From positions 1-64,000 of IMG/VR virus record IMGVR_UViG_3300023174_000046: a stretch of DNA of 64,000 nt. One strand, given 5' to 3'. This document shows positions 26,897-58,630 of the stretch, in pieces. A program made the translations under genes and the position numbers. The notes under the pieces were generated by a model that saw nothing but the letters and a program-made list of their open reading frames with translations, was not told where the DNA came from and did no database searches. This DNA comes from a virus. Within the stretch, counting starts at the first letter, position 1, and every line of letters starts with the position of its first letter.

Positions 26897-26971
26897 TGCT
26901 CGGTAGCTCAGCGGTAGAGCGGTGCACTGTTAATGCATTGGTCGTAGGTTCGATCCCTACTCGAGCAGCCA
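26897..26971 (+). tRNA. tRNA-Asn (GTT), CCA encoded
   Basis: Acceptor TGCTCGG/TCGAGCA, anticodon loop CTGTTAA (GTT), encoded CCA at 26969-26971. Confidence 0.95.
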
Positions 26972-26976
26972 ATTTT

Positions 26977-27429
26977 TTAACTGGTTATATAGGGTTTGTT
27001 TTTAAGATCTAAAACATAATCACTACAAATACCTAGACAATCTGAAATAACGTGAGGGTACTTTTCAGGCAACACATCAATGCTTTGTTTAATTTTATCT
27101 TCGCTTGGAAAAGCCCATATATAGTTTTTACTTGTTAGTGTTAACTTGTCTTGTTCATGCCAGAAATAGTGTATATCTTTATTCTGTAACTCAACCACAG
27201 CTTGAGTGTTTTTGCAGTGAACCCAAAGCCGTCCTCTTCTCTCATATAACCAATTGTAGTTTATTATGTATTGAGGGTAATCGTGTCCTAGGAACCATTG
27301 TGCCTCTTTAAACCATAAATCTATTTCAGCATCAAAACCTAAACTTAGTGCACTATCAATATAGTTGGGAGAATTTTCCTGAGCAACATTTACCCCGTTA
27401 ATATTGCCTCTATGTGATATTACTATCAT
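26977..27429 (-). CDS. GDPD-like phosphodiesterase, 150 aa
   Basis: The glycerophosphodiester phosphodiesterase signature is present in short form: SHRG near the N-terminus, ENSP, GFDAEIDLW and LGHD at about residue 50. His of HRG, Glu/Asp of AEIDLW and His of GHD are the catalytic and metal residues. At 150 residues only the core of the barrel is present. It is the last gene of the sugar operon, overlapping the upstream gene by four bases, so its substrate may be a surface-glycan phosphodiester; this is inference. Confidence 0.75.
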   Translation of the reverse strand: MIVISHRGNINGVNVAQENSPNYIDSALSLGFDAEIDLWFKEAQWFLGHDYPQYIINYNWLYERRGRLWVHCKNTQAVVELQNKDIHYFWHEQDKLTLTSKNYIWAFPSEDKIKQSIDVLPEKYPHVISDCLGICSDYVLDLKNKPYITS

Positions 27430-28118
27430 TTTTTATAAAAATCAGCTTCTGATATATATGAACCATAATATTTATCCCAAAGATATTTGTGGTAATTTTC
27501 ATTAAGATTGCTTGTGCTTATCTCTTGTAAATTAGATGGAGTTACAAACATCCACTTTAAACTATCATTTGATCGATATGAAAAGAAATCTTGCACCGTA
27601 CTGTTATATTTTTTATCAAAAATATTTTTTAGATTTATCATTCCATCATAATTATATACCCAGTCTTTACTTTCCCATATAGAAATTAAAAAATCAACAT
27701 CACCATACATAAACAGATCACCAATTAAATGGTTTAAATTTGTTTGAGCTGTAATTAGACATTTCTTATTTTCTTTATTAATTATATTTTCACAATATTC
27801 AAATATATTATCATGTGACGAGAATGAGTCTAAGCGCATTTTTAGAATATTTTTTGCACCTAATTCTTTTGCGAGAATTAAACTATTTCTTACACATACA
27901 GGGTGACCAAAACCTATTTCAGAGGGCATAAACGGATACCACAGTATCCTATCAGCTTTTATAGAATCTTTAATACTATCAATACCGTGTCCAGCAACGA
28001 TAACTGTTAAATCACTATATTTTTGTTTAAAGTAGTCTACAACAAAATTAAAGATATTAACTTTGTCTTTCTCAGATTCATCTCTAACAAAACAATGACT
28101 TAATATCAGGTATTTCAT
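27426..28118 (-). CDS. Probable glycosyltransferase (WavE-like), about 230 aa
   Basis: The start MKYLILSHCFVRDES follows a short longer frame that overlaps the upstream gene more; I use 28118. Motifs include GHGIDSI and VRNSLILAKELGAKNILKMRLDSF, where the R-x-D pattern resembles WavE/nucleotide-diphospho-sugar transferases, and a C-terminal Trp/Tyr-rich part. It overlaps the sulfotransferase gene by 35 bases and the GDPD-like gene by four. The acceptor is unknown. Confidence 0.55.
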   Translation of the reverse strand: MKYLILSHCFVRDESEKDKVNIFNFVVDYFKQKYSDLTVIVAGHGIDSIKDSIKADRILWYPFMPSEIGFGHPVCVRNSLILAKELGAKNILKMRLDSFSSHDNIFEYCENIINKENKKCLITAQTNLNHLIGDLFMYGDVDFLISIWESKDWVYNYDGMINLKNIFDKKYNSTVQDFFSYRSNDSLKWMFVTPSNLQEISTSNLNENYHKYLWDKYYGSYISEADFYKK

Positions 28119-28689
28119 AGTTAAATAATTCAAAATCTTTTTTATAAAAATCTATAATAATTTCTAACGACAACGGTGTAAACCATTTTTTTAAATTCTT
28201 ATCTGTATTAGTTTGCCTCATGCGCATAGTATAGTCCAATTTCAAATCCAATTTTTCATTTATTTTTTGACAAGATTCGTTAAAGTTTTCATATCTATAT
28301 ATACAGTCAGCGATGCATGCATCATTTTCATAAAAAAAGCTATATTGGGGTACAAAATGAATTTCTGCGCATAAAGAAGTTTTATTGAAATTTAAACAAA
28401 ATAATTCAATATCTGAAAACTGCAAAGCTTCTTTTGACCATGTTATAATATGCCCGGGATCTGTTATAGCATCAACATATGTAGAAATAAATCTATCTAA
28501 TGGATTTCTTGTAAAGCCAAATTTAAAATAATCTTTATGTGTTTTTGTCTCAGGAATTTTCGAAAGTGGTGCGTGGTAAATATTTGGTAACTGCCCTAGT
28601 GTGGAATGATCTAGCTGCGTCATTATTGTAGTTGAACCAGTTTTTGGAACAGAAGTGAATATAAATTTTTTGTCGTGATTAACAATCAT
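28084..28689 (-). CDS. Sulfotransferase (Sulfotransfer_2 type), 201 aa
   Basis: The PAPS-binding 5'-phosphosulfate loop is KFIFTSVPKTGSTTI (about residues 8-22) and the 3'-phosphate motif is FGFTRNPLDRFISTYVD (about 55-72), both as in carbohydrate sulfotransferases. It would transfer sulfate from PAPS to a sugar hydroxyl. The ATGA overlap with the nucleotidyltransferase-RpiB gene places it in the activated-sugar operon, so it may sulfate the sugar made there. Confidence 0.85.
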   Translation of the reverse strand: MIVNHDKKFIFTSVPKTGSTTIMTQLDHSTLGQLPNIYHAPLSKIPETKTHKDYFKFGFTRNPLDRFISTYVDAITDPGHIITWSKEALQFSDIELFCLNFNKTSLCAEIHFVPQYSFFYENDACIADCIYRYENFNESCQKINEKLDLKLDYTMRMRQTNTDKNLKKWFTPLSLEIIIDFYKKDFELFNYEIPDIKSLFC

Positions 28690-29834
28690 ATATCAGAGAT
28701 ACGTGTATAATGTCTACCACCATCAAACTTATTGTTAGTAATTATCTCTATATATTTCTTAAATTGTTCTTTGCTTAAGTTCTTAGAAGGGAAAGAAAAG
28801 AAATTGCAGCAATTGTGCTTGATTGCATACTCACAAGAATAGTCATCGTACACAAGGCATGATCTTATGCCTTCTACTTTATTGGCACAAATATTAACTC
28901 CTTGCCCGGTTCTACAAAACGCAAGAACTAGATCAACATTTTTTTTAAGCAGTTGCTTGGCTGATTCTTTGACGTATATATTGTAATCACAATCTTTGCC
29001 TGAGAATGTTCCGTAATCAATATAATCAATCTTATATTCATTCAACAACTCTATTGCGAGTTCCTTAGCCTCATAACCAGAATGATCAGAGCATAAACCT
29101 ATACGCAATGTATCATACAATACATTTTTTTCATAGAATTCTAATTCTAACGGTGTTCCTAATACATAGAATTTATCTGTTAAGATTGCATTAACCTTTA
29201 AATTATTTTTTATGTAGTGATTATAAATAGGACATATATAATATTCATTTTTTACTGTTTCTTTATTTTCAATCATTATTGATGCATACTTAAAAAACAA
29301 TTCTGGTTTTTTAAAGAAATATAAACCTGCTGCAGCGTTATCGCTTATAACTTCTTTTTCTTTTGTTTCAACAACAAATCCATCTTCACCCAACCTTGCA
29401 TAGCTATGATCGGGGCTATTCGCTTTAAAGGTAAGCAGTGATGCATCGTATTTAATAAACAAGTCTAGATCAAAATTTGGCGCAAAAGTAACATCCGGAG
29501 TATAGACAACAAGCGGCAGGGCGTTGTCAATATATTCACGAGAATACAAACAAGTACATAATGCACCGCCTGTTAATTCATTTAATTCTATAATCGTTAT
29601 ATTATTGCCAAATTTTTTCTTTAAAAAACTATCGATTGAAAAATTTAAAACGTGTTGCTTCTGAACAATAAAAATTATATTTGCGTCACTCAAGTTAAAG
29701 GGTGTCAATGCATGCTCTAATATTGTCTTCTTATTACAAGGTATCATTGGCTTGGGCATCAAATAACCTGCTTCTTTAAAGCGGTTTGCAGAGCCAGCTA
29801 TAGGTAATACTAAGTTATATTTTTTTGAGCTCAT
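28686..29834 (-). CDS. Fusion of sugar nucleotidyltransferase and RpiB-like isomerase, 382 aa
   Basis: Residues 1-230 are a nucleotidyltransferase: LVLPIAGSANRFKEAGYLMPKPMIP (G..R...PKP signature), then VVYTPDV. From about 240 the protein matches RpiB/LacAB isomerases: IGLCSDHSGYEAKELAIELL, DYGTFSGKDCDYNIY, LVLAFCRTGQGVNICANKVEGIRSC (with the catalytic Cys in the CxTGxG loop) and HNCCNFFSFP. RpiB enzymes interconvert aldose and ketose phosphates; the N-terminal half activates a sugar-1-phosphate. I do not know an identical fusion. It overlaps the kinase gene by 20 bases. Confidence 0.8.
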   Translation of the reverse strand: MSSKKYNLVLPIAGSANRFKEAGYLMPKPMIPCNKKTILEHALTPFNLSDANIIFIVQKQHVLNFSIDSFLKKKFGNNITIIELNELTGGALCTCLYSREYIDNALPLVVYTPDVTFAPNFDLDLFIKYDASLLTFKANSPDHSYARLGEDGFVVETKEKEVISDNAAAGLYFFKKPELFFKYASIMIENKETVKNEYYICPIYNHYIKNNLKVNAILTDKFYVLGTPLELEFYEKNVLYDTLRIGLCSDHSGYEAKELAIELLNEYKIDYIDYGTFSGKDCDYNIYVKESAKQLLKKNVDLVLAFCRTGQGVNICANKVEGIRSCLVYDDYSCEYAIKHNCCNFFSFPSKNLSKEQFKKYIEIITNNKFDGGRHYTRISDI

Positions 29835-30483
29835 ATGTTATTAAATCGTGTGACGGCTTTATTGATTTATGCACATTTAGTTTATTTTCAATTAAATTAC
29901 ATAAAACGTATGCTGCAAATTTATCACCCAACCCTAATACATTCACATTATCAACAATCTCAGCATTAAAATCGGTAGAACCATCTCTTGTGTAAAGAGT
30001 GCTGCCCGTCTTCTTATGCAGAATTATGTTTGGGATTTTTCTTGATAATTCCTCCATACTAATAAAACAATCTTCATCAGAAATAAACAACAAATCTATC
30101 TTGTTTAAGAATTCAGAAGTTCCATCTAGATGTCTACCATTACAAACATCTGCGGTAACGAAACCGTTTAAATTTTCAATAAACGAGATATCTTCTAATT
30201 CATTAATATACATTATATGATGTATTGAAGAAGACTGCACTATAGCGGGTGAGCTATAGAGATTGAGACATGATTTGCTAGTTCTCTTTGATTCCTTTTG
30301 ATTTATCATTACAAGGGATTCACCTATTGCAGTAGGTTGTAAAGAAATTTTGAGGTGAGGTTTATATTCTTTTATGCTCTTCCACACATTACCCATGCAA
30401 CCGACCGAAGTCGTATTTTCAAAACCGTTAAATATGTTATCGAAGCTCAGATGGCCGTAGAGAGAGATATCAAAACTTTTCAT
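29815..30483 (-). CDS. PfkB-family carbohydrate kinase-like protein, 222 aa
   Basis: Beginning and end match the ribokinase/PfkB fold in diverged form: LYGHLSFDNIFNG and GCMGNVWKSIKE at the N-terminus, and VNVLGLGDKFAAYVLCNLIE at the C-terminus (the DTxGAGDxF motif with the catalytic Asp). It is short for the family (usually about 300), and the middle region is compressed. In this operon it would phosphorylate a sugar phosphate or sugar, as HldE does with heptose-7-phosphate. Overlaps both neighbours. Confidence 0.65.
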   Translation of the reverse strand: MKSFDISLYGHLSFDNIFNGFENTTSVGCMGNVWKSIKEYKPHLKISLQPTAIGESLVMINQKESKRTSKSCLNLYSSPAIVQSSSIHHIMYINELEDISFIENLNGFVTADVCNGRHLDGTSEFLNKIDLLFISDEDCFISMEELSRKIPNIILHKKTGSTLYTRDGSTDFNAEIVDNVNVLGLGDKFAAYVLCNLIENKLNVHKSIKPSHDLITYELKKI

Positions 30484-31000
30484 GTTGATCTATTGCGTAT
30501 ATGTTTTCTATGCTGTAGTTAGAAATAAGATCTCTCTCTAATAACCATTCGTACAGTTCTAATACACAATTGTCACCTCCTTTATTCTTTAAAACGTGGG
30601 AAATTTTTTTAATTTCTTTTGGAGCATCGCTCGGGCAAAAAGCATATTTTACTTTTTTCATAATTTCTAAATCAAACGTATCATCTCCCATAAACACTGC
30701 TTCATCTGATAAGCAATTATATTTTTCTAATAATGTATGCAAAAACTCACTCTTGCACATACCCCGGGTATAATAAAAAGGTATATTTCTATTTTTAGCT
30801 ATAGCCTCATTTATCTTGTTATCTCCTGATAAAAAAACAACTTCAATATTTACAGATTTAAATTTTTTAATAGCAGTAAAGTCTTTATCGCAGAATGTTT
30901 TGTACGCTGCAGTGCCGCTGCTGTCGTAGTATTTTTTACCATCTGTTAAAATACCATCTACATCTAATATTATTAATTTTATCAAAATATTATTCTCCAA
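30470..31000 (-). CDS. KdsC-like HAD phosphatase, 176 aa
   Basis: The HAD motifs are LIILDVDGILTDGKKYYDSSG (DxD nucleophile, about 9-28), VVFLSGDNK (motif II), a Lys within MCKSEF and VFMGDDTFDLEIM (motif III). These match 3-deoxy-D-manno-octulosonate-8-phosphate phosphatase (KdsC) and related sugar phosphatases. It overlaps the kinase gene by 14 bases. In the operon it could remove a phosphate between kinase and nucleotidyltransferase steps, as GmhB does in heptose synthesis. Confidence 0.8.
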   Translation of the reverse strand: MENNILIKLIILDVDGILTDGKKYYDSSGTAAYKTFCDKDFTAIKKFKSVNIEVVFLSGDNKINEAIAKNRNIPFYYTRGMCKSEFLHTLLEKYNCLSDEAVFMGDDTFDLEIMKKVKYAFCPSDAPKEIKKISHVLKNKGGDNCVLELYEWLLERDLISNYSIENIYAIDQHEKF

Positions 31001-31609
31001 TTATCTTATCAAATTAACATCTACATCTACACGTTCTTCACTTATACTGTTTGTTGTGCAATGATGTTTTAATAAAGTCTCGGGATGAAAAATTATATTA
31101 TTATCGATATAATCATTTATTCTTAGGTATATCTCTGATATTTTATCCATGGTTTTTGAGTCAGAAAACCAGAATTGGTCACAATACCCGCCAAGATAAT
31201 CTTTTTCTCTGTTGCCAATCAATACAATAGCATTATTCGTTGTTCTCAATTTGACCTTATTTGTAAATGTACAATCTGGTCTCAATCTCACTACTACATC
31301 AAAATCTTCACCAGTTTCAACTTCATAATCGCGTTTCAATTGAACACATTTGTAAACTTTATACATCCACTTTAAAATATTTGTTATGTTAGGGTTAGTT
31401 CCGCTCGATTTTGCTGTAAATTTTGCAAGTTTATTTTTGTAAAGATCAAGCTCTGGTACATACAAGGATCTCTCTGCAATAAGCCCTGGTAAAGGAACAT
31501 CTGTTACAGTAAATATCTTATGATCGCAGTCAAATAAATTTGAAATTATGTTATCTTTGTTCTGTTCCCAGGTTCTTGTTTGGCCTGAAATACATATAGC
31601 AACTTTCAT
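31001..31609 (-). CDS. Putative glycosyltransferase, 202 aa
   Basis: The sequence MKVAICISGQTRTWEQNKDNIISNLFDCDH and the DVVVRLRPDCTF segment (about residue 105) resemble a group of putative glycosyltransferases in viruses and bacteria that have VxISGQ(T/P)R and R.RPD motifs. No membrane segment. It is the first gene of the seven-gene minus-strand operon ending at 26977, right after an early promoter. Confidence 0.55.
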   Translation of the reverse strand: MKVAICISGQTRTWEQNKDNIISNLFDCDHKIFTVTDVPLPGLIAERSLYVPELDLYKNKLAKFTAKSSGTNPNITNILKWMYKVYKCVQLKRDYEVETGEDFDVVVRLRPDCTFTNKVKLRTTNNAIVLIGNREKDYLGGYCDQFWFSDSKTMDKISEIYLRINDYIDNNIIFHPETLLKHHCTTNSISEERVDVDVNLIR

Positions 31610-31657: not shown

Positions 31658-31680
31658 ATGTAGTTCTTTTACATTTTATT

Positions 31681-31754
31681 CGGGCATTAGCACAGCCTGG
31701 TAGTGCACTTGCTTTGGGAGCAAGATGTCGCAGGTTCAAATCCTGCATGCCCGA
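31681..31754 (+). tRNA. tRNA-Pro (TGG)
   Basis: Acceptor CGGGCAT/ATGCCCG, anticodon loop TTTGGGA (TGG), T-loop AGGTTCAAATCCT. Confidence 0.95.
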
Positions 31755-31841
31755 AGTTTTTTGTTGGGTGGACGTTTTAGCGTTTTCCCTGTCCTTTAAA
31801 ACAACTGAAGAGAGAAACGCGACAAGTTGTTTACCAGCATT

Positions 31842-40862: not shown

Positions 40863-41030
40863 ATGTTTAAAAAACTTTTACCTAATTTCTTAACACGTGA
40901 CAAAGAGATAGTAGTTAAATTCAAAGAAATTGAAGAAGAGAATAAAATTCTTCTCGAAGAGATCAGACAGTTGAAGAAGCTTCTTTATGATATAGAATTA
41001 GATTTTGCTGCAAGAGTAAAAAACAAATGA
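40863..41030 (+). CDS. Coiled-coil protein, 55 aa
   Basis: A 55-residue protein (MFKKLLPNFLTRDKEIVVKF..., ending RVKNK) with heptad-like Leu/Ile spacing in EIEEENKILLEEIRQLKKLL, so probably a short coiled coil. It has a leaderless-type early promoter and overlaps the next gene by ATGA. Confidence 0.6.
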   Translation: MFKKLLPNFLTRDKEIVVKFKEIEEENKILLEEIRQLKKLLYDIELDFAARVKNK

Positions 41031-41614
41031 TCTTATCGTTTACTGGTCCACAAAGTTCAGGTAAGACTACTCTTCTAAAGAAGTGTAAAGAGTATTATGG
41101 TTCGAAGTTATGTTATATTGATGAAGTTACTAGACTAATTAAACGTTGGCATAATTGTGATATAAATGAAGAAGGTGCAAGTGATGTTACGCAGACATTA
41201 ATTCTAAATAAAGAATTTGAGAATTTGTTTTATAATTACAAAGGATTTGGATTTCAAGGCATATTGCATGATCGTTGCTTGATGGATGGCATGGTTTATA
41301 CAAGTTATTTTGCTGGTAGTAGACTAAATGATTTTCCTGTATCTAATAGCTTAGGTTTGTTATACTATACAAATTATATTAAAAAGTATGATCATATCTT
41401 TTATCCAAGTCCTCATGATGTTCCGCTGGTTGATGATGGTGAGAGAAGCATTAATAAAGAATTTAGGGATGCTATTATTGATAAGTATGAAAATTTTTGG
41501 CTAAAAGATGAGAGATTGAAAGATAAAGTTACTATTTTAAGAGGGACTGTTGACGAGCGAATGGAACAGATTAAGTCAAAGATATGTCAGTTGATGCCAA
41601 GCCTTTCTGTTTAG
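41027..41614 (+). CDS. P-loop AAA_28/NadR-like ATPase or kinase, 195 aa
   Basis: The Walker A loop is FTGPQSSGKTTLLKK at residues 5-19, with a Walker-B-like ILHDRCLMDGMVY (about 83-95). This matches the NadR-type ribosylnicotinamide kinase/AAA_28 group and small phage nucleotide kinases. A paralogue is at 60351. The substrate is not visible. It overlaps the radical-SAM gene by 31 bases. Confidence 0.7.
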   Translation: MILSFTGPQSSGKTTLLKKCKEYYGSKLCYIDEVTRLIKRWHNCDINEEGASDVTQTLILNKEFENLFYNYKGFGFQGILHDRCLMDGMVYTSYFAGSRLNDFPVSNSLGLLYYTNYIKKYDHIFYPSPHDVPLVDDGERSINKEFRDAIIDKYENFWLKDERLKDKVTILRGTVDERMEQIKSKICQLMPSLSV

Positions 41615-42903
41615 CTCCTTGGGCAGGCATTCACGCACTACCAGATGGGTTGGTGTACCCATGTTGCATGTCTACATTCGATCCCGAAAATTCGTTCGGT
41701 GATCTCAATAAAAATACAATTGAAGATATTTTAAATTCAGAAAAAGCAAAGCAATTTAGATGCAAGATGATGGCAAATAAGCCGGATGAGAGAGCTTGTA
41801 GTCATTGCATAAGTGAAGAAAAAACAGGAACAAAAAGTTTCCGTAATCACTGGAATACTAAGTATGAACATACTCTTCCTTTTGTTAAAGAAACAGATAA
41901 AGATGGTTATTATCGATTTAAAAATTTTCCATATATTGATATAAGACTATCAAGCTTGTGTAATTTTAAATGTAGAATGTGTCATAGTGGCTTGAGCTCT
42001 GCTTGGTTATTAGAAGACATAAAGTATGAATCAAATTATCAAAATTCTTTTAATCTTAAAACCGGTGTTATTGAGATACCACAAAAAGAAAAACTTATTA
42101 AATTTATTATTGATAGGATTGAGCATGTGGAGGAGATTGAGTTTGCAGGTGGTGAACCTTTTCTAATAGCAGATTATTTTACTCTAATTAAAGAATTTAA
42201 AAGAGCAAAAAATTTTAACGTTAGGATAAGATTTCATACAAATGCATCTTCTTTGTATTGTAAGGGTGAATATATACCAAACTTGCTCAAGGAGTTTAAA
42301 AATGTTTTTATAATGTTGAGTATTGACGGTTACAGTGAAGTTAATGACTACATGAGAAAAGGTAGTGTATATAATAAAATTGTTACAAATATAACTTTAC
42401 TTAAACAAATAGTACCACAAGCATTCTTGAGATTGGTACCGACAATTAGCATACCAACTGTATATAGTGTGCCTTTCTTGTATGTAGATTTCTTACGCAA
42501 AGGTTTAATTCGGCATGAGGATATTGCATGCAGACCTCTTTACGGGCCTGAATATCTTAACATACAGACACTACCATTAGAAGATAAATTAAAAATTTTA
42601 AAGTTCTATAATTACTTTATTGATAACATAACAGCTAAACTTCTACAACACTTTCCAGATGAAAGCGTCACATATGTTAAGCAAGAATTTTCATCAATTA
42701 TGAATTTCATGTTGCTTAAAAATCAAATTGTGCAATTTAATAGCAATAGGTTTAAGGAGAGTATTAAGCGGCTTGATATTCGACGAGACGAAAGTTACGA
42801 AGATATTTCACCAGAAACTGCTCATCTTTTATCAGGCAGTGTTTCAATATACAATCTAGATAACAAATATAATGAGTTGAAGACTTTCATAGATAGCATA
42901 TAA
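41584..42903 (+). CDS. Radical SAM protein with twitch/SPASM-type domain, 439 aa
   Basis: The radical-SAM CX3CX2C cluster motif is LSSLCNFKCRMCHSG at about residues 125-138, with EFAGGEPF (GGE motif) near 190. The N-terminus has further Cys (FCLAPWAGIHALPDGLVYPCC, later CSHCISEE) that could bind an auxiliary iron-sulfur cluster, as in SPASM/twitch proteins. Such enzymes modify peptides or small molecules. In cyanophages similar proteins exist without a known substrate. It lies just before queF. Confidence 0.8.
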   Translation: MSVDAKPFCLAPWAGIHALPDGLVYPCCMSTFDPENSFGDLNKNTIEDILNSEKAKQFRCKMMANKPDERACSHCISEEKTGTKSFRNHWNTKYEHTLPFVKETDKDGYYRFKNFPYIDIRLSSLCNFKCRMCHSGLSSAWLLEDIKYESNYQNSFNLKTGVIEIPQKEKLIKFIIDRIEHVEEIEFAGGEPFLIADYFTLIKEFKRAKNFNVRIRFHTNASSLYCKGEYIPNLLKEFKNVFIMLSIDGYSEVNDYMRKGSVYNKIVTNITLLKQIVPQAFLRLVPTISIPTVYSVPFLYVDFLRKGLIRHEDIACRPLYGPEYLNIQTLPLEDKLKILKFYNYFIDNITAKLLQHFPDESVTYVKQEFSSIMNFMLLKNQIVQFNSNRFKESIKRLDIRRDESYEDISPETAHLLSGSVSIYNLDNKYNELKTFIDSI

Positions 42904-44354: not shown

Positions 44355-45851
44355 TTAGAAGTAGACTGATTGTGTTCCAGGGGTAAAGGCAACGCCTAGA
44401 CCCGAGATGATGATAACGTGGTAGTACAAGTTAGCACCAAATATATTGTCGACTACACCGTAGCGGGTCATGAGACCAACACGAGGAGCGAAATCATTTG
44501 GACCAATTGTACGCTGTACCATAACAGGGATGTATGGGCAGTAGATAATACCGGTATCATAAAACTCTGGACCCTTGTAGCCCAATAGGGCGTACTCGAG
44601 AGGAGTTTGACGAGAACCAGATTGAAACTGTGCCTCAGTACGTGTGTCACGATACACATTAAAACGTCCACCAAGTGAACCTACCTTAGCTACGCCTACT
44701 GGTTGTGTGTTTACATTACCCTGTACAGGTACCCACTGGAATTCAGGGAGCATCTCAAGGATAGCGCAAACGCGAGGTGTTGCAACAACAAAGTTGGCTG
44801 CACCACGACGATTACGAACAGCAATACGGTTAGCTTCGATAATTAGTCTCTGATAGAAATCGCGATTACGTTCAACGAGCCAACGACCGTCTGCTGAAGC
44901 TGGGCTCCAAACAGAGTAGCCGGTGCCTGCGCCAGCGTTTAGAGCAACCTGGATCATGCGGATGATCATTTCACGATCGATTTCTGCCTGTAGCTCATAG
45001 CTCATAGCATTTGTCAATTCAGTGTCAATGTCAATACCGTTCATGTTCTTAAGATCTTGCTCCAATTCTACTGACCAGCGAGCGCCTAGTCTACGTGTAC
45101 CGGCTTCAACTGCTGTCTTCTCGAAGGAAACTACGACCTGAGGGATTGCTCCTGTCAATTCGTAATCCTTGAGAATACGTGCTACACCTGCATCTGATCC
45201 GAGGATCGAGAAAGCAGAGTTACCGGACAAGCCGGCAGATGATGTACCAGTGAAACGTGTATCTAGGAACTGATAACCCAATTCTTGACCGTCTGTACCT
45301 GCAGCGGTAGGACCGCCGTAGTTTGTACCTACAGTTGTACCGGTAGCTGATGGTTGACCATCAACACCGTTACCAAGGGCTTCGTTATCGTAACGATAGC
45401 GCAAAGCAAATGCCAAACCAACTGGGCCTGACATTGGCTGAACGCCAACGATTTCATTAGAAATAAGTTCTGGGAACGTTCTACGAATCATCGGAATCAA
45501 GATCTTTGGAAGACGATAATCACCTGCTGCATAGGTATCAGTACCAGGAGTACCAGCTGGGTTATTAACCCAATTGGATGTCTGGAATGTACCTAGAGAA
45601 CCACCGGCATTGCCAGCGGCATTTGAACCGGCCTGATCAGGATATGAAGGGTTATAATTAGGCCCTGCTTCCCTCAAGCACCATTGTTCTTGGTTTTCCA
45701 AGAGAATGGCTGTGTTCAAACGGGTATGATCATCTTCGATTGCTGCAACATTCTTGGAAGAGTAATCCAATACTGGACTCCACTTTTCAAGAAGAGCTGC
45801 GGCTCTTGATTCGTCAATATATGACTGCGAAGGACGAACAACTTTTTTCAT
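44355..45851 (-). CDS. 23: Major capsid protein (T4 gp23-like)
   Basis: A 498-residue protein with the gp23 N-terminus (LLEKWSPVLDY..., AILLENQEQW), the repeat-like AAG(S)NAAG spacer and the HK97-type core: MIRRTFPELISNEIVGVQPMSGPVG, ELEQDLKNMNGIDIDTELTNAMSYELQAEIDREM and a C-terminal FAPRVGLMTRYGV. A gp21-type cleavage is possible after LRE (between residues 61 and 62), removing the leader. It forms the hexamers of the capsid and needs the gp31-like chaperonin in T4. It directly follows gp22. Confidence 0.95.
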   Translation of the reverse strand: MKKVVRPSQSYIDESRAAALLEKWSPVLDYSSKNVAAIEDDHTRLNTAILLENQEQWCLREAGPNYNPSYPDQAGSNAAGNAGGSLGTFQTSNWVNNPAGTPGTDTYAAGDYRLPKILIPMIRRTFPELISNEIVGVQPMSGPVGLAFALRYRYDNEALGNGVDGQPSATGTTVGTNYGGPTAAGTDGQELGYQFLDTRFTGTSSAGLSGNSAFSILGSDAGVARILKDYELTGAIPQVVVSFEKTAVEAGTRRLGARWSVELEQDLKNMNGIDIDTELTNAMSYELQAEIDREMIIRMIQVALNAGAGTGYSVWSPASADGRWLVERNRDFYQRLIIEANRIAVRNRRGAANFVVATPRVCAILEMLPEFQWVPVQGNVNTQPVGVAKVGSLGGRFNVYRDTRTEAQFQSGSRQTPLEYALLGYKGPEFYDTGIIYCPYIPVMVQRTIGPNDFAPRVGLMTRYGVVDNIFGANLYYHVIIISGLGVAFTPGTQSVYF

Positions 45852-51231: not shown

Positions 51232-51575
51232 ATGATATAATGATTTATCTCTCTTTTAGAGAGTTCAAGGTTTTGAGCTAACATAGTTAACTCTTTATTT
51301 TCTTCCTCTTCCTTTGTATTTTTCTTTTTAACGTAGTCTATTTTCTTAAAATTGTATTTAGGGAGAAAATTTTTTAAAAAATAAAAATGTTCTTGTTTTG
51401 AAAAATTAGTAAAACGGTTTGTAGTGATGTTAATAATATTAGCTAACTCTTTATTATAAAAAGAGCACCATCGATTTATCATAAACGGTGTATAAGAATT
51501 GTTATTATCGTGATTTATCTCTCTACTTTTCTTTGAATAAAGAATGGAGTTGAGAAAGTCAAAAATTGTATCCAT
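51213..51575 (-). CDS. 62: DNA polymerase sliding-clamp loader small subunit, gp62-like
   Basis: The motif YTPFMINRWCSFYNKELANIINITTNRF is the core of T4 gp62-like clamp-loader subunits ((Y/S)PF(M)INR..S). The 120-residue length and helical, Lys/Asn-rich composition fit the family, which forms the A subunit of the loader with gp44. The gp44 gene is not in the window. It overlaps the gp31-like gene by 19 bases and abuts the DUF366-like gene. Confidence 0.75.
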   Translation of the reverse strand: MDTIFDFLNSILYSKKSREINHDNNNSYTPFMINRWCSFYNKELANIINITTNRFTNFSKQEHFYFLKNFLPKYNFKKIDYVKKKNTKEEEENKELTMLAQNLELSKREINHYIICQKYL

Positions 51576-52159
51576 TAACTAATAACTTTAGTTGTAGCAA
51601 TAAAGATATCGTCGTTAAGATTATAAAACAGATTAATAATTTCTGCCATGAAGTTATTGGCTTGCTCGTCGGTAAGATTTGTTGAGTAAGCAAAAGCGGG
51701 TGCCTTCTTACCTGCTGCAATATTAATACCGGTATGACCAAGCGCAACATTATTCTTTGTGTATGTGATGCTTACGCTACATTTACCTTTTGGTTGTGCA
51801 ATACCACCTTGTGTATGTTCTTTATGCACAATTAAATCGTCGCCTTTCATTTCAATAGGAGCTTTGAGATATTGTGTAGAGAGAATATTAGCAATCTGAG
51901 TATTTAAAAGTCTTTGATAAGCTACAGCACCAAACGCATCAAGGTTAGGAATTTCCCAAAGAAAATTAATTGCATCATCACTGTAGATATAATCTGCATT
52001 GAGAATATCCTCACTATCAATCATACCTTCTGCTTCAACTTTCATGGGCGATCTGAATGCAATGATATTACCGATCGGTAATGTTTTTTCTCGGAAAAAC
52101 TTATATGCAAATCGTGAATGCAGCAATGACCCGTCGTATATTTTTTGATTAATAATCAT
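51575..52159 (-). CDS. DUF366-like protein, 194 aa
   Basis: The N-terminus YDGSLLHSRFAYKFF, then MIDSEDILNADYIYSDDAINFLWEI, AVAYQRLL, MKGDDLIVHKEH and KCSVSITYTKNNVALGHTGINI match the DUF366 pattern (IYSDxxxxFxxE, RQRLL, GDD, SVSI, HxGxN). Such proteins are mainly archaeal/bacterial; I recall, without checking, a link to 7-deazaguanine tailoring in phages. An early promoter (TTGATA-16-TATTAT) sits six bases upstream. With QueD, QueE and QueF in the window a base-tailoring role is attractive. Confidence 0.65.
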   Translation of the reverse strand: MIINQKIYDGSLLHSRFAYKFFREKTLPIGNIIAFRSPMKVEAEGMIDSEDILNADYIYSDDAINFLWEIPNLDAFGAVAYQRLLNTQIANILSTQYLKAPIEMKGDDLIVHKEHTQGGIAQPKGKCSVSITYTKNNVALGHTGINIAAGKKAPAFAYSTNLTDEQANNFMAEIINLFYNLNDDIFIATTKVIS

Positions 52160-52165
52160 TAGCTT

Positions 52166-52193
52166 ATAATACTATCTCAAACTTGAATATCAA
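52166..52193 (-). promoter_or_regulatory. Early promoter, TTGATA-16-TATTAT
   Basis: On the minus strand TTGATA (52188-52193) and TATTAT (52166-52171), 16-base spacer, six bases before the ATG at 52159. The -35 overlaps the stop of the epimerase gene. Confidence 0.65.
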
Positions 52194-53185
52194 CTCTTTT
52201 CTATTTGCGATTTAATCCAAGAATAAGTCTTTTTTAACCCTTCTGCGAGAGGGTAATTTGGCTGCCAATTTAACTTTTCGCCAATTAATTTATTGCAAGA
52301 ATTTCTGCCCCTTACACCAGTAGGACCATCTAATTTATAATTTTTTGTAATTTTCTTGTTTTCAATGGAGCATGCTAAATCAACTAATTGGTTAATTGTC
52401 ACGCGCTCTTCTGAGCCAATATTGACTGGTCCGAGAAAGTTTGATTCCATCAACCGACGGATACCTTCAACACATTCATCTATATATAGAAATGATCTGG
52501 TCTGCTCACCGTCACCCCAAATTTCAATATCACCAGTTGATTCTAAGACTTTGCGACAAATTGCAGCAGGCGCTTTCTCCTTGCCACCCTTCCATGTTCC
52601 TTGAGGACCAAAAATATTATGAAAGCGTGCAATACGCACATCAATGTTATAATTTCTGTTGTAAGCAAGGTAAAGCCGTTCGCTAAAGAGTTTTTCCCAC
52701 CCATATTCGCTGTCGGGGTTTGCTGGGTAGGCGCTGCTTTCCTCACAATTGGGATTATTTGGATCAAGTTGATTGTGTTCAGGATACATGCAAGCGCTAC
52801 TGCTATAAAATATTTTCTTTAAACCCACATCAACAGCTTCATCTAGAACGTTTAAATTAATTGTTGCAGAATTATGCATCACATCAGCATCATGTGCACC
52901 AGTAAAGATGTAACCTGCTCCGCCCATATCTGCTGCAAGCTGATACACTTCATCAAACGATGTATGGTGCGTGTGCGTGTAATAGTGCCAAGATTTATCC
53001 ATTGCTTTGCGTACGTTGTCACGCTCTCTTAAATCCAAAATAAAGAATTGATCTGCTTGTGTGGAAGAATATTCAGGATATTTTAAATCTACACCACGTA
53101 CAAAATATCCCTCGCTTTTTAATCTTGTAACTAAATGGTTACCAATAAAACCACCTGCGCCTAAAACTAATGCACTTTTTTTCAT
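52190..53185 (-). CDS. NAD-dependent sugar-nucleotide epimerase (GDP-mannose 3,5-epimerase-like), 331 aa
   Basis: An extended SDR: GAGGFIG (NAD-binding Gly loop) at residues 10-16, YGWEK (active-site YxxxK) near 165, SSSACMYPE before it. The segments QLAADMGGAGYI, FHNIFGPQGTWKGGKEKAPAA and GDGEQTRSFLYIDECVEGI are typical of GDP-mannose 3,5-epimerases, which convert GDP-mannose to GDP-galactose or GDP-gulose. It overlaps the methyltransferase start by four bases and is last in the glycosylation operon. Confidence 0.8.
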   Translation of the reverse strand: MKKSALVLGAGGFIGNHLVTRLKSEGYFVRGVDLKYPEYSSTQADQFFILDLRERDNVRKAMDKSWHYYTHTHHTSFDEVYQLAADMGGAGYIFTGAHDADVMHNSATINLNVLDEAVDVGLKKIFYSSSACMYPEHNQLDPNNPNCEESSAYPANPDSEYGWEKLFSERLYLAYNRNYNIDVRIARFHNIFGPQGTWKGGKEKAPAAICRKVLESTGDIEIWGDGEQTRSFLYIDECVEGIRRLMESNFLGPVNIGSEERVTINQLVDLACSIENKKITKNYKLDGPTGVRGRNSCNKLIGEKLNWQPNYPLAEGLKKTYSWIKSQIEKS

Positions 53186-53772
53186 ATTTTTGTTATTAAG
53201 GAGATTTCTTTATTACCGTCATGGTTTGAGATGTGAGCCTTCTTTTTAATGTTGTATTTTTTTAACGGAAAGAAGTCACATGAGAGTGGTCTGCTACGCA
53301 ATGGCATGTCTTGCCAATCGTCCTTCTGATCGCAACTATTGGTTATAAGAATGTAGTTAAAATTAGCAATAGCACGATCTAGAAAATAAACAATTTCGTC
53401 ACATAACCAATGCTGTATTACATCTTTTAGTAAAAGTAAATCACCTGTATAGTTAAAAAAGTTTTCAATTTGCTCAATATATTCAAAGCGAATATTAGGT
53501 GCACTGTAAGTTGAATTGTGGTGGTCGATCAAGCTCTTTACACAGTCGATGCCTAGATAATTTACACTGGACCAGTCAATAAGGCGTGAAAACTGCCAAT
53601 CACCACACCCATAATCAGTTACAGTTTTAATATTATTTTTTTGTATAAAATCTGTAATAAATTTTCTATAACCTACAGTATGTTCTGGATAAGAGCCAGA
53701 ACCTGAACCATTCCACTCGTTTGTGTCGTAAATCCTTGTAAAATGGTTAATATGTGATTTGTGATCGAGCAT
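53182..53772 (-). CDS. SAM-dependent class I methyltransferase, 196 aa
   Basis: Motif I is VTDYGCGDWQFSRLIDW (about 48-64), giving the SAM-binding Gly loop, followed by NYLGIDC (motif II acidic end) and DLLLLKDVIQHWL (motif IV/post). No DNA-binding domain is seen, so a small molecule or sugar methyltransferase is more likely than a DNA one. It belongs to the glycosylation operon. Confidence 0.75.
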   Translation of the reverse strand: MLDHKSHINHFTRIYDTNEWNGSGSGSYPEHTVGYRKFITDFIQKNNIKTVTDYGCGDWQFSRLIDWSSVNYLGIDCVKSLIDHHNSTYSAPNIRFEYIEQIENFFNYTGDLLLLKDVIQHWLCDEIVYFLDRAIANFNYILITNSCDQKDDWQDMPLRSRPLSCDFFPLKKYNIKKKAHISNHDGNKEISLITKI

Positions 53773-53798
53773 TATGATATGTTATAATATATTTGTTA

Positions 53799-54593
53799 TT
53801 AATCAATAGATATTAAATTGGCGTAATAATTGAACATGGCCTTTTCTCTTGAGTTTTTAATTAAAGTGTCGTATTTTGTTTCTAAAAACTCTTCTGTTAT
53901 TTCTTCAAAAGAATTTACAAACAAAATAGGCAGGTCAGTAAAATAATCTAAAGCGGTGTGATTCTCTACTATAGGAATCACATTTAAATATATTGCTTCC
54001 CAAATTCGATGACAGTCAATACTGTTGCCTGGTGGCGACACAACATACTTATATGCTTTAAGCTTAGTAAGATAATCTTTATATTGATGAATTTCTGTAT
54101 CTATATTAATAAATGTCTTAGTTTTTAAAATATTGAGAATATTTTGTCGCTTAAGCAGGTTAGTTGAAATATTAAAATTACTATAAACGAGTTTTGTTTT
54201 TTTAATAGGTGTATTGATCACATCTAATAAAGCATTCTTGTCACCGTGCGGCCACTTCTCATTAGCTATGCCGATGGGTATTGGTTGCAATTTATCGTGC
54301 TTAATGTGGCAATTCATGGCATGCCATTTAATGAGGTTATTGCTGTTTAAGATGTTTAGGTATTCTTCTGTAATCCAAAGATCGGAATTATGTGTAATAA
54401 GTTTAAAGGTATAGTCAATTCGGGGTAGTACTTTTTCGGCAAAAATTTTTAACCAATCTGTATATAAAAATATAATTTTGGGTTTGTTTGCAAGATTTAC
54501 AAGCGGCTTGCTCTCATCTATATATTCTGAAGCTAGAGCTTTAAAACTATTACCTGATATAATATCTTCTATACTGATAGGTGTTACTAACAT
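53799..54593 (-). CDS. Exostosin/GT47-like glycosyltransferase, 264 aa
   Basis: The C-terminal half contains YKYVVSPPGNSIDCHRIWEAIYLNVIPIVENH, a segment typical of exostosin (GT47)-like and related GT-B transferases that bind the nucleotide sugar. The N-terminal half has IIFLYTDWL and HNSDLWIT. It overlaps the next upstream gene by seven bases. Donor and acceptor are unknown. Confidence 0.7.
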   Translation of the reverse strand: MLVTPISIEDIISGNSFKALASEYIDESKPLVNLANKPKIIFLYTDWLKIFAEKVLPRIDYTFKLITHNSDLWITEEYLNILNSNNLIKWHAMNCHIKHDKLQPIPIGIANEKWPHGDKNALLDVINTPIKKTKLVYSNFNISTNLLKRQNILNILKTKTFINIDTEIHQYKDYLTKLKAYKYVVSPPGNSIDCHRIWEAIYLNVIPIVENHTALDYFTDLPILFVNSFEEITEEFLETKYDTLIKNSREKAMFNYYANLISID

Positions 54594-55459
54594 AGTGCGT
54601 CAAGTTTTTTACAATGTACATGAAGATTCATAATAGGTATATGTGTATTATTATATACAATATAGGGCGTTTCTTCAACCTTAACATCAATTTTTTTATC
54701 CTGAATAGCAGCCCCTATGTAGTGATGTCTACCGGTCCAGCCTCTATCGTGTCCGTTATTCGTTCCACCAAGATATTGGCCATATGATGCACCATCAAAC
54801 AATACGTTTAACTTATCAAAATTATCACTACCAACACCTTCCGGTAAAATAGGTAAGTAATCCATAATGCCTTTTGTGTGTGTGTATACCAAGTCAATAA
54901 TTATCATTTCTGATAAATGGTCATATGGTGTAAACTGTTTAACAAAATTTTCACCTTTCATAATAAGTTGTTTTGTTTTTTCAATAAATTTTTTATAATG
55001 ATCTAAGCTGTTACAAAAAACAAATCCTGCAGAGCTACAATATGGTCCTACTCGAGTAAAGTATATTGAAGGGGGGAGCACTTCTAATACGCTTAAATCT
55101 GAATATATAAGGTTATCATATTCAAGATGTACAAACTTGTTTATATTATTTTCTTCACAATACAGATAAACAGCATAGAGTCGAATTAGTGTCAATAACC
55201 AAAACGGGTCGTTGCAGAAAGAAGGAAAATGCTGCTTACATAAGTAATAAAATTCATTTATTTTTTCATGACTAGATTCACTAATATTTTCGTTGGTTAA
55301 AACAATGGATTTTTGTTGTAAAAATCTTTCACTTTGTGCAAAACTATATTTTGCATATTCAGGTAAATCTGAAAATGTAAAGGTCGATAATTTAAGGTCG
55401 CTTGAAAATTTAAATTTATCTGGACTTAAATGTACGTAAATTGCTTTTAAATTTTCCAT
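54587..55459 (-). CDS. Probable glycosyltransferase (GT-A-like), 290 aa
   Basis: The sequence INKFVHLEYDNLIYSDLSVLE looks like the acidic metal-binding region of GT-A enzymes (ExDN-type), followed by IYFTRVGPYCSSAGFVF. The N-terminal part begins LKAIYVHLSPDKFKF. A C-terminal Gly-rich ASYGQYLGGTNNGHDRGWTGRHHY segment may bind the acceptor. No family name is certain. Confidence 0.55.
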   Translation of the reverse strand: MENLKAIYVHLSPDKFKFSSDLKLSTFTFSDLPEYAKYSFAQSERFLQQKSIVLTNENISESSHEKINEFYYLCKQHFPSFCNDPFWLLTLIRLYAVYLYCEENNINKFVHLEYDNLIYSDLSVLEVLPPSIYFTRVGPYCSSAGFVFCNSLDHYKKFIEKTKQLIMKGENFVKQFTPYDHLSEMIIIDLVYTHTKGIMDYLPILPEGVGSDNFDKLNVLFDGASYGQYLGGTNNGHDRGWTGRHHYIGAAIQDKKIDVKVEETPYIVYNNTHIPIMNLHVHCKKLDALC

Positions 55460-57090
55460 GAATGTATCGATAATATTGATTTATCAGTTTTAAGGGCTCT
55501 CTCAATAGTTGCAACAACATCGTTTTCAGACCAATTTTGTCCTTGATTTAAATCTCTGCCTTCATTCATTTGACTCAATGGTTCAAATGTATACAGGCCA
55601 GGATAATACTGATTAACAATATTAGCATAGGTTTCATATTCAGAGAAATGAAATACCTGATTCATGCTAGGCCCGATATCCTTTAGAAGTAGTTCAGGAG
55701 TACTGTAGCCGGTACTATCAAGAAACGATTGAATAATATTTTTATTAAAGAGACCTAAATCACCAATACCTGTATGATTTAAAGATTTTTTAAGATTAAA
55801 ATGTCTTCTATTAAAGAGAAAGTACGGAAAGTGATTTTGCTTCCACCCGTAATACCAGACTGGCTTGTTTTCCTTGAACAGGGGTAATTGTTTTAAAATA
55901 ATTGTATCACAATCTAAAGCAAAATAATATTGAGAATGACTCTTAAAGAAAAGTTTTAAAAATTGTTGATAAGTCCAATTAGGTCTAAATCCTATAAAGC
56001 TTTTATCCGTTAAATTTACAACATCTAAATCATTGATATATTCAATGCCTTGAATCTTACTATTAATCTTATGTGGTGAACACACAAAAACATTTTTTGG
56101 TGCTAAGTGTTTTAAGGCATATTCATAAACATACTTTAATTTTATCTCATCTTTTTCAATTAAAGGTATAAACAAATCATAGTCAGTATTTGTATCCACC
56201 GGTAATGGTGTAAATGGTTTACATTTTACAGGTGTATTAAAAATTCTAAAATGCTTCTTTTCAATCTCTTCTTCGTTTGGAAAAGGCTGGTACCACTTGC
56301 AGCCATTGATAACGGGTCTCTTCATGGGTACATTTTGTACGTAGGAAAACCAAAGATGGCCGACAAGTAAATTACGCTTGAATACATCTTCATTATAATA
56401 ATTTTCAATATGGCCTTGTGTTGAAGTGCTTCCGTGCTCAATATGAAAACAAACAGGTGGAAGTTTGTTAACAAATTTAGTATTTACAAGTATTGCTAGC
56501 ATTGTAGCCGAATATGTATCCCAATACATACGTCCGAGAACTAGATCTTCAAAGTGGTTTCTTATTTGTAACCAGATATCTTTTTTAATAAGAAAAGCAT
56601 CAAAGCCATGCACAGAATAAGATTCTAATTTTGGAATATCATCCAACGATTCAATGTCGTAAATGTGCATGCGACTGATGGCATATGCATCCGAGCCATC
56701 TATTTCTTTTAAGAATCTGTTCGAAAGAATAATATCATTATTTAAAAAAAGAAAATAATCACAATCAGTACTAGCTAATACATCAAATATTTCTTTAACA
56801 GAAGGTAGTTCCTTTTTATTGCTATCTATTTCTTCTTTTCTAATAATATATTCATTGGTTAAACCATCATGTTGAAAATAATCATGGATGAGTTCATTAG
56901 AACGAACAGTTAAATTGTTGAGTGTTGTGAAATGATCATACTTAATATTTTCATTTGTAAAACAAACATTATATAAATCAATATTAGTATTCTTATTTTT
57001 AATTTTAACTAAACTATCAATACAAAATTTCTCTCTTTTTTCTAGAGAGTCATAAGTTTTAAACCCGTTTATACCAATTGCAATTTTCAT
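55447..57090 (-). CDS. Two-domain glycosyltransferase, 547 aa
   Basis: The N-terminal half (about 1-260) has TDCDYFLFLNNDIILS (DxD/NND motif of GT2-like transferases), with RMYWDTYSATML. The C-terminal half (about 300-547) has SQYYFALDCDTIILKQLPLF, another DCD motif, as in LgtA/DUF6492-type transferases. Two transferase domains in one chain suggest addition of two sugars or a polymerising role. Overlaps both neighbours by four to 13 bases. Confidence 0.7.
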   Translation of the reverse strand: MKIAIGINGFKTYDSLEKREKFCIDSLVKIKNKNTNIDLYNVCFTNENIKYDHFTTLNNLTVRSNELIHDYFQHDGLTNEYIIRKEEIDSNKKELPSVKEIFDVLASTDCDYFLFLNNDIILSNRFLKEIDGSDAYAISRMHIYDIESLDDIPKLESYSVHGFDAFLIKKDIWLQIRNHFEDLVLGRMYWDTYSATMLAILVNTKFVNKLPPVCFHIEHGSTSTQGHIENYYNEDVFKRNLLVGHLWFSYVQNVPMKRPVINGCKWYQPFPNEEEIEKKHFRIFNTPVKCKPFTPLPVDTNTDYDLFIPLIEKDEIKLKYVYEYALKHLAPKNVFVCSPHKINSKIQGIEYINDLDVVNLTDKSFIGFRPNWTYQQFLKLFFKSHSQYYFALDCDTIILKQLPLFKENKPVWYYGWKQNHFPYFLFNRRHFNLKKSLNHTGIGDLGLFNKNIIQSFLDSTGYSTPELLLKDIGPSMNQVFHFSEYETYANIVNQYYPGLYTFEPLSQMNEGRDLNQGQNWSENDVVATIERALKTDKSILSIHSWKI

Positions 57091-57869
57091 GGCTTTATTT
57101 GTTTTAAGAAGCTAACAACTTCTTGCTTTGTTTTGTTTGGTATCTGTGTTACAGCAACATTATGTTTTTTTATAAAAAATTCCCACTCTTTATGTATTTT
57201 CTGGGTACGAGAACCATCAGGATTATCTGGTGCGTCAATGCGACTGCTCGTCTCGGGGTTATTCATGATATAATTATCCGAATTTGTTAAATCTGCAAAC
57301 CACCAGAACGGTGCAGCATAATCCCCGCGGATGGACTCCCTGTACGTGAGATCAACATCCCATGCAAATCTGTAGCTTGTATCATACAGACCGTTCTTAC
57401 TGTAACACGATGCATGATGATATGTAAATTCGTTGCACATATTTGGATAAAATGAAATGCTTGCGTCCTTATTATACTGTACAGTTAATTTGGGGGTTCG
57501 TTTTTCAGGAGTACCAGATTCCCAGGATGTGCTTACAAATGAAAAGTACTTTAACCCGCTTGCTTTGGACGCATCTATATATTTGTAAAATATATCTTTA
57601 TCCTTAATAACCATATCATCTTCAATAATAAAAATGTGATCGCATTTTTTTTCTAAAAGAAAATTAATACAATCATTTCTGCATACACTTGGATATCTGT
57701 TTTTACGGTGCTGGATCCAATCTGAATCATATTTCTTAGAATATTCTTTACCACCATTTACTGTTACGAATTCATCAATTACATCTCGTGGCAAAGAGCT
57801 GTACAATGCATCATAATAATGCTCTGTATTGTATGTGGTAATTCCTACGCCAATTTTTTCTGTACTCAT
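57087..57869 (-). CDS. GT2-family glycosyltransferase, 260 aa
   Basis: It begins KIGVGITTYNTEHYYDALYSSLP, with the TTYN nucleotide-binding loop, and has KCDHIFIIEDDMVIKDKDIFYKYI (EDD motif) and FAWDVDLTYRESIRG. The order and spacing fit GT-A family 2. The paralogue just upstream (57866) shares the same motifs, indicating a duplication. No membrane segment, so it acts in the cytosol, on a soluble or membrane-linked acceptor. Confidence 0.75.
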   Translation of the reverse strand: MSTEKIGVGITTYNTEHYYDALYSSLPRDVIDEFVTVNGGKEYSKKYDSDWIQHRKNRYPSVCRNDCINFLLEKKCDHIFIIEDDMVIKDKDIFYKYIDASKASGLKYFSFVSTSWESGTPEKRTPKLTVQYNKDASISFYPNMCNEFTYHHASCYSKNGLYDTSYRFAWDVDLTYRESIRGDYAAPFWWFADLTNSDNYIMNNPETSSRIDAPDNPDGSRTQKIHKEWEFFIKKHNVAVTQIPNKTKQEVVSFLKQIKP

Positions 57870-58630
57870 AATGATTTAAAATATTCAATGACCTTTTCAA
57901 GGCCATCATAACTCTGGCTAGGGTTTGTAACATCAACGTTATGTTTTTGCTTAAATCTCTCTACACCTTTTCTAAAATTTTCCACCCAATTACCTTTTCT
58001 TATAGTAGATTTATCGTGATGGTAGTCTTGATCAACAATGTATTGATTGCTATTCTCTAGGTCAATAAACCATCGAAAGGGCGGGTGATATTTGTGGTTT
58101 ATAGCAATCATTGTATGATCGACATGTTCCATAGCATTAATATACTCTTCATCTAGTAATCCGATCTCTTCAAAAACTGATCTATGATAGTAACTACATG
58201 CACCGTATACATTGAAGTATAGTGCAACTCTCTGGCCTCTTATTTCAAAAATTTTACGAGGATTAGGTGTGTTATTTTGTTTGTTGTCTTGACCGTGTAA
58301 ACAGTAGTTGAAATGCTTCACTTTAGTTTTTTTGCTAGCTTCTATGTATGCTTCAAATGCATTCTGAAGAAAAATAACATCATCTTCAACAAGGAAGATA
58401 TGTTCACAGCCTCTCTCTAAGAGAAATTTTATTGCTTTATTCTTTGACTTGCCAACACCTTGATTTACTTCATTATTAATAATATTCATCCCAGACTGTT
58501 CAATTCTCTGAATCCCGTCATTTATAATAACCAATTCATCATACCAGTCCTTATTGAGACTTTTAATACATTTCTTAAGAAAAGCAGGCCGATCACAGGT
58601 TACAATGCCTACACCTATTTTCTCTTTCAT
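57866..58630 (-). CDS. GT2-family glycosyltransferase, 254 aa
   Basis: KIGVGIVTCDRPAFLKKCIKSL at the N-terminus and NQGVGKSKNKAIKFLLERGCEHIFLVEDDVIFL (GT2 core with EDD) match the family. AMEHVDHTMIAINH provides further conserved residues. First gene of the glycosylation operon, with a consensus early promoter. It is paralogous to the next gene. Confidence 0.8.
   Translation of the reverse strand: MKEKIGVGIVTCDRPAFLKKCIKSLNKDWYDELVIINDGIQRIEQSGMNIINNEVNQGVGKSKNKAIKFLLERGCEHIFLVEDDVIFLQNAFEAYIEASKKTKVKHFNYCLHGQDNKQNNTPNPRKIFEIRGQRVALYFNVYGACSYYHRSVFEEIGLLDEEYINAMEHVDHTMIAINHKYHPPFRWFIDLENSNQYIVDQDYHHDKSTIRKGNWVENFRKGVERFKQKHNVDVTNPSQSYDGLEKVIEYFKSL

Follow-up and report, generated by a model that had tools for sequence, protein, structure and literature searches.

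A window of 64,000 nucleotides of viral DNA (positions 1 to 64,000 of the IMG/VR record IMGVR_UViG_3300023174_000046) carries a seven-gene minus-strand cassette. The cassette probably converts a ketose phosphate of central metabolism to a nucleotide-activated sugar and feeds it into surface-glycan synthesis. A probability of about 0.68 is assigned to this reading. It draws directly on the linkage of the genes, their folds and families, the retained catalytic residues and the glycan-cluster context of the related loci. The cassette is real, conserved and functional-looking, and the outline of its mechanism is likely. An earlier note, made from the sequence alone, had described an operon of seven overlapping genes with the four roles of isomerase, kinase, phosphatase and nucleotidyltransferase. 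It was verified that seven open reading frames are present between positions 26977 and 31609, each overlapping or abutting its neighbor (Table 1), and the enzymes for the four roles were indeed found to be encoded together in many genomes and to retain their catalytic residues.

Viral contigs were searched with the kinase family, which yielded 94 relatives, of which 80 were kept. The locus counts refer to 56 loci that are distinct in kinase sequence, including the window. By script, the genes for the HAD phosphatase, the PfkB kinase and the nucleotidyltransferase-RpiB fusion (NT-RpiB) stand next to each other, always in this order, in 52 of the 55 other loci; the window, which the script passed over owing to its minus-strand orientation alone, brings the number to 53 of 56. 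This linkage is far beyond chance. The exceptions were L029, in which the contig ends, as well as L039 and L057, in which the parts are separated. The loci that carry the triplet are mostly viral and aquatic, and the protein identities to the window are mostly 36–50%. The earlier note had named close operons in other genomes as a check and the occurrence of the genes in unrelated contexts as counter-evidence; such operons were found, and nearly all of the kinase relatives retrieved lie in the cassette. It had missed the wide spread in aquatic phages, the cupin as the usual partner and the GDPD-like protein as a conserved partner.

The assignments of the three core proteins were all upheld. The phosphatase matched TIGR01670 (KdsC/YrbI) with an E-value of 1.3e-26, albeit with 93.4 bits and thus under the cut-off of 106.95; phmmer matches to KdsC structures were obtained, and the motifs DVDGILTDG and GDDTFD are conserved. 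The kinase had no PfkB match in Pfam (the best match was Phos_pyr_kin, E 0.03), and a search with the kinase alone against the PDB sequences yielded no match. Its structure was predicted with AlphaFold2, using alignments from which rows of the named-phage collection were left out. The model had a predicted local distance difference test score of 93.8 and a predicted template modeling (TM) score of 0.91, and the top solved matches in a Foldseek search were ribokinases (E 2e-12, query TM score ~0.7), confirming the PfkB-like fold. D15 and the GxGD residues (G184, G186, D187) are invariant in 40 relatives, two of which are bacterial. The fusion protein matched phrog_3980 over its full length (6e-68), PF02502 (RpiB) with 2.9e-32, and PF00483 (NTP_transferase) with 6.8e-5, which is above the cut-off. 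The nearest solved relative of the nucleotidyltransferase domain is 4evw, a putative sugar pyrophosphorylase. The RpiB domain passed TIGR00689 (99 bits versus a cut-off of 88.3), and in an alignment with 1o1x, 1nn4 and 3he8 the Asp-His, Cys, Thr, His-Asn and GGRHxxR elements, the latter with the phosphate-binding Arg pair, were kept.

From these enzyme types and the precedent of ADP/GDP-heptose synthesis we infer the following order of steps. The RpiB domain would isomerize a ketose phosphate (D-ribulose 5-phosphate being the most likely one) to an aldose phosphate, the short PfkB kinase would phosphorylate the anomeric C1 hydroxyl group to yield an aldose-1,n-bisphosphate, the KdsC-type phosphatase would take off the distal phosphate, and the nucleotidyltransferase domain would convert the resulting aldose 1-phosphate to a nucleoside diphosphate (NDP)-aldose. 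In the infected cell, phage transferases would then attach the sugar to the O-antigen or capsule, i.e., to a surface glycan of the host. The stereochemistry preferred by RpiB enzymes is of the ribulose type; ribulose 5-phosphate would be the first choice of substrate and allulose 6-phosphate the second. The C1 specificity of the kinase is a guess from the analogy to HldE, the kinase domain of which is of the PfkB type.

The role chain of isomerase, C1 kinase, distal phosphatase and nucleotidyltransferase is that of the ADP-/GDP-heptose pathway (GmhA, HldE or HddA, GmhB, and HldE or HddC). In contrast to that pathway, the cassette has an RpiB-type isomerase, while GmhA is SIS-type, its phosphatase is of the KdsC type and not GmhB, and its NTP_transferase-type nucleotidyltransferase is fused to the isomerase and not to the kinase. 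The earlier note had suggested a heptose as one possible product, and a non-orthologous version of the ADP/GDP-heptose route from sedoheptulose 7-phosphate to an NDP-heptose, in which RpiB would stand in for GmhA and the KdsC-type enzyme for GmhB, would retain the chemical roles in identical order. Furthermore, the PfkB-family kinase of the known pathway (the N-terminal domain of HldE) acts on heptose 7-phosphate at C1. RpiB-family enzymes, however, use pentose- or allose-type ketoses. Heptose genes do occur in phages, but the genome report of cyanophage SynMITS9220M01 lists a separate heptose kinase, phosphoheptose isomerase and heptose epimerase (PMC7378029), next to which the cassette would be redundant. 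Because of the RpiB-type isomerase and these reported heptose genes, a pentose is a more probable product than a heptose, and the heptose route is considered unlikely.

Several observations weigh against the proposed pathway. The RpiB domain scored under the cut-off of TIGR01120, the ribose-5-phosphate isomerase B equivalog (86 versus 138.65 bits), and in all aligned family members the loop C-G-T-G-x-G-x-S is replaced by C-[RCYK]-[TS]-G-Q-[GA]-V-N. Because of this score and the changed loop, the domain may act on a substrate other than ribulose 5-phosphate. For a kinase of its family the PfkB protein is unusually short, the parts of the triplet lie apart in L039 and L057, and L006 has no kinase between HAD and NT-RpiB. 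Lastly, the pathway explains no role for the cupin and the GDPD-like protein. Also in the RpiB domain family, HND is changed to HNC or a variant. In L006, the usual place of the kinase, between NT-RpiB and what is here a partial HAD gene, is taken by a frame that was read by eye as HNH-like (244-875).

The triplet is present in the cyanophages Bellamy and SynMITS9220M01, where its genes are annotated as "phosphatase" and "hypothetical protein". The cyanophage loci L002 and L003 are surrounded by genes for epimerases and glycosyltransferases, and downstream of the triplet Bellamy has a GHMP kinase gene, a second nucleotidyltransferase gene and a gene annotated as an epimerase. In two marine viral contigs, L092 and L100, the sequences of adjoining genes look like those of a GDP-mannose dehydratase and a GDP-fucose synthase. 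It is very unlikely that the genes serve nucleotide precursor supply or central metabolism, as an RpiB/PfkB auxiliary set for pentose phosphate flux, and not the synthesis of a glycan donor: a sugar-nucleotidyltransferase fusion, the linkage with a phosphatase and surroundings of glycosyltransferases, epimerases and a sulfotransferase do not fit such a role, although cyanophages shift host metabolism toward the pentose phosphate pathway, RpiB yields ribose 5-phosphate, and SynMITS9220M01 encodes a glucose-6-phosphate dehydrogenase within a few kb of its cassette. In S-CAM9, B23 and relatives the nucleotidyltransferase is instead fused to a different HAD-type domain, and a GDPD-like gene is also present. 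In B23 and S-CAM9, the N-terminal domain of these fusions (L004 5350-6723, L005 5350-6735), near the GDPD-like gene, reads as a beta-phosphoglucomutase-type HAD; judged from its sequence, the fusion would provide a different way of making a sugar 1-phosphate.

Cells also have full fusions, namely Prochlorococcus AG-347-I04 (L020) and a SAR116 metagenome-assembled genome (L021). Order-wide searches revealed that they are rare, with one among the 136 SAR116-order and one among the 250 Prochlorococcus-order genomes. Both loci also contain cupin, HAD, PfkB-like and GDPD-like genes, so that the sets are complete but divergent, with PfkB-like proteins that are 17–18% identical to the window kinase. 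The neighbors in L021, read by eye, include a GDP-mannose dehydratase, a UDP-sugar dehydrogenase, an ABC transporter, a methyltransferase and a glycosyltransferase. A further candidate, L019 from a Crocinitomicaceae bin, was set aside; the viral record L097 has the same size of 15,998 and the same cassette, and L019 is probably a viral contig inside that bin. The location of the cellular relatives in O-antigen- or capsule-type loci also bears on the suggestion of the earlier note that the sugar could be transferred to DNA or the virion. DNA or virion glycosylation is known in some phages, and the window contains QueD- and QueE-like sequences (by eye, unconfirmed). However, the loci sit among O-antigen/capsule-type genes and the operon has no identified DNA-modifying glycosyltransferase, making a donor for the phage's own DNA or virion proteins quite improbable.

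Directly after NT-RpiB, or almost so, a cupin gene (phrog_24762) was found by script in 53 of 60 distinct sequences, and on reading frames in three more (L011, L012 and, somewhat further downstream, L055), giving 56. The remaining slots comprise one contig end and three with a sulfotransferase gene followed by the gene for a 235-amino-acid protein, i.e., the window, L092 and L100. No cupin was found in a search of the whole virus record of the window. The sulfotransferase matched PF03567 (7.4e-18, 66 bits, cut-off 22), in agreement with the earlier note, and the 3′-phosphoadenosine 5′-phosphosulfate motifs PKTGSTT and RNPLDRFISTY can be read in its sequence. The 235-amino-acid protein did not yield any match in a Pfam search; its relatives, 32–36% identical, are confined to L092 and L100, where each immediately follows the sulfotransferase. 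Because the sulfotransferase and this protein recur in the slot of exactly three loci, sulfation is a real sub-variant of the cassette. The sulfation suggested by the earlier note is partly supported: the slot and the neighbor recur in two other viral loci, but the sulfotransferase is missing from most cassettes. In the variant, the two proteins that replace the usual cupin would probably sulfate the added sugar or the glycan. In G003, another cassette-bearing record, a sulfotransferase match lies elsewhere in the record. L100 and SynMITS9220M01 (L002) are 95% identical in HAD and 79% in the kinase, and only 48% in NT-RpiB, a pattern that is consistent with a module exchange in which NT-RpiB and the genes downstream of it were replaced as one unit. 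The fusion tree gives no support for a recent common descent of the sulfotransferase variant, as it has no clade of the window, L092 and L100; the window is found on a long, deep branch.

In 46 of the 56 loci, a gene for a GDPD-like protein is found no more than 6 kb from the kinase gene. The GDPD-like protein of the window matched phrog_34507 with 1.1e-29, and the family profile found solved GDPDs across the HRG/ExD/HD catalytic region (E 0.003), in support of the family named by the earlier note. H6, R7, E35, D37 and H49 are invariant and aligned with solved GDPDs, while in a PDB fold search with the 150 residues, which bears on a complete GDPD TIM barrel, a GDPD ranked only fifth, with an E of 0.08. 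The two glycosyltransferase-like proteins of the earlier note are its weakest calls. The first gene product, A_GT, matched phrog_13607 (function not assigned, 1.1e-13) and, sub-threshold, DUF7796 (0.0012); a member of its family is encoded within 6 kb in 42 of the 56 loci, and A_GT is 22–27% identical to several of these proteins. A_GT and the 235-amino-acid protein, which has no Pfam match, are considered as putative transferases only.

The window is part of a record of 217,413 bases from a large, T4-like phage and encodes a T4-type Gp23 capsid protein. The operon is transcribed opposite to the tRNA genes on either side, and the G+C content of its genes is 0.27–0.34, compared with 0.36–0.39 in the measured flanks, as expected for an inserted block. 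Promoter and terminator scans yielded nothing above the level of shuffled sequences, and a megablast search of the operon region against named phages returned tRNA matches only. The window contains a second minus-strand cluster (51575-58630) that is probably also glycan-related. Elsewhere, a gene for a radical SAM/SPASM protein adjoins one for a thymidylate-kinase-like protein, and the QueE- and QueD-like sequences suggest a 7-deazaguanine pathway.

Table 1. Features of the window, in the order of their positions within each group.
Feature	Position	Strand	Basis or remark
GDPD-like protein, small, 150 amino acids	26977..27429	-	phrog_34507, GDPD profile, HRG/ExD/HD motifs
235-amino-acid protein, family not recognised	27426..28133	-	linked to sulfotransferase; likely start ATG 28118
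Sulfotransferase (Sulfotransfer_2), 201 amino acids	28084..28689	-	PF03567
Nucleotidyltransferase (residues 1-~240) fused to RpiB-type isomerase (~243-382)	28686..29834	-	PF00483, PF02502, phrog_3980
Short PfkB/ribokinase-fold sugar kinase (predicted), 222 amino acids	29815..30483	-	AlphaFold2, Foldseek, GxGD
KdsC/YrbI-type HAD phosphatase, 176 amino acids, TTG start	30470..31000	-	TIGR01670, KdsC structures, motifs
A_GT, putative glycosyltransferase, 202 amino acids, first gene	31001..31609	-	phrog_13607
tRNA-Asn	26897..26971	+	left boundary of operon; ARAGORN
tRNA-Pro	31680..31755	+	right boundary of operon; ARAGORN
DUF366 protein	51575-52159	-	second cluster
NAD epimerase	52190-53185	-	second cluster
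RXYLT1-like protein	53799-54593	-	second cluster
GT2 glycosyltransferase	57866-58630	-	second cluster
Thymidylate-kinase-like protein	41027-41614		
Radical SAM/SPASM protein	41584-42903		
T4-type Gp23 capsid protein	44355-45851		
QueE-like sequence	61099-61848		by eye, unconfirmed
QueD-like sequence	62841-63482		by eye, unconfirmed

The general idea of cyanophage surface-glycan clusters is known. Iyer et al. 2021 (PMC7824862) described "LPS" (lipopolysaccharide) clusters of cyanophages and jumbo phages that alter the host surface and contain PfkB kinases, cupins, epimerases, nucleotidyltransferases and glycosyltransferases; in the section of that paper that was consulted, the RpiB-nucleotidyltransferase fusion, the fixed HAD-PfkB-NT/RpiB triplet, the GDPD-like partner and the cupin/sulfotransferase swap are not mentioned. 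A literature search, mostly covering papers outside subscription, likewise retrieved no description of the enzyme set, the fused isomerase, the GDPD-like partner or the slot swap. A pentose also ends in a bacterial surface glycan, and a HAD phosphatase is also involved, in bacterial ribofuranose addition, which depends on phosphoribosyl pyrophosphate (PRPP) and uses gPRT together with the phosphatase (PMC11127046, PMC10299916). In contrast to the cassette, however, the donor in that system is PRPP or undecaprenyl-phosphoribose and not an NDP-sugar, and neither a PfkB kinase nor a sugar nucleotidyltransferase takes part. It is tempting to speculate, but for now doubtful, that the cassette represents a complete, hitherto undescribed phage pathway to an NDP-pentose, e.g., NDP-ribose or an epimer, as a Leloir-type donor, with a sub-variant that sulfates the host-surface sugar. 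Should an NDP-pentose indeed be the product, the known bacterial ribose transferases do not employ a donor of this type (PMC11127046).

Taken together, cyanophage genes that were labeled here and there as "hypothetical protein" or "phosphatase" become one testable pathway that is shared by dozens of aquatic viral contigs, and the one-for-one exchange of cupin and sulfotransferase points to phages that change how the sugar they put on their hosts is tailored in its last step.

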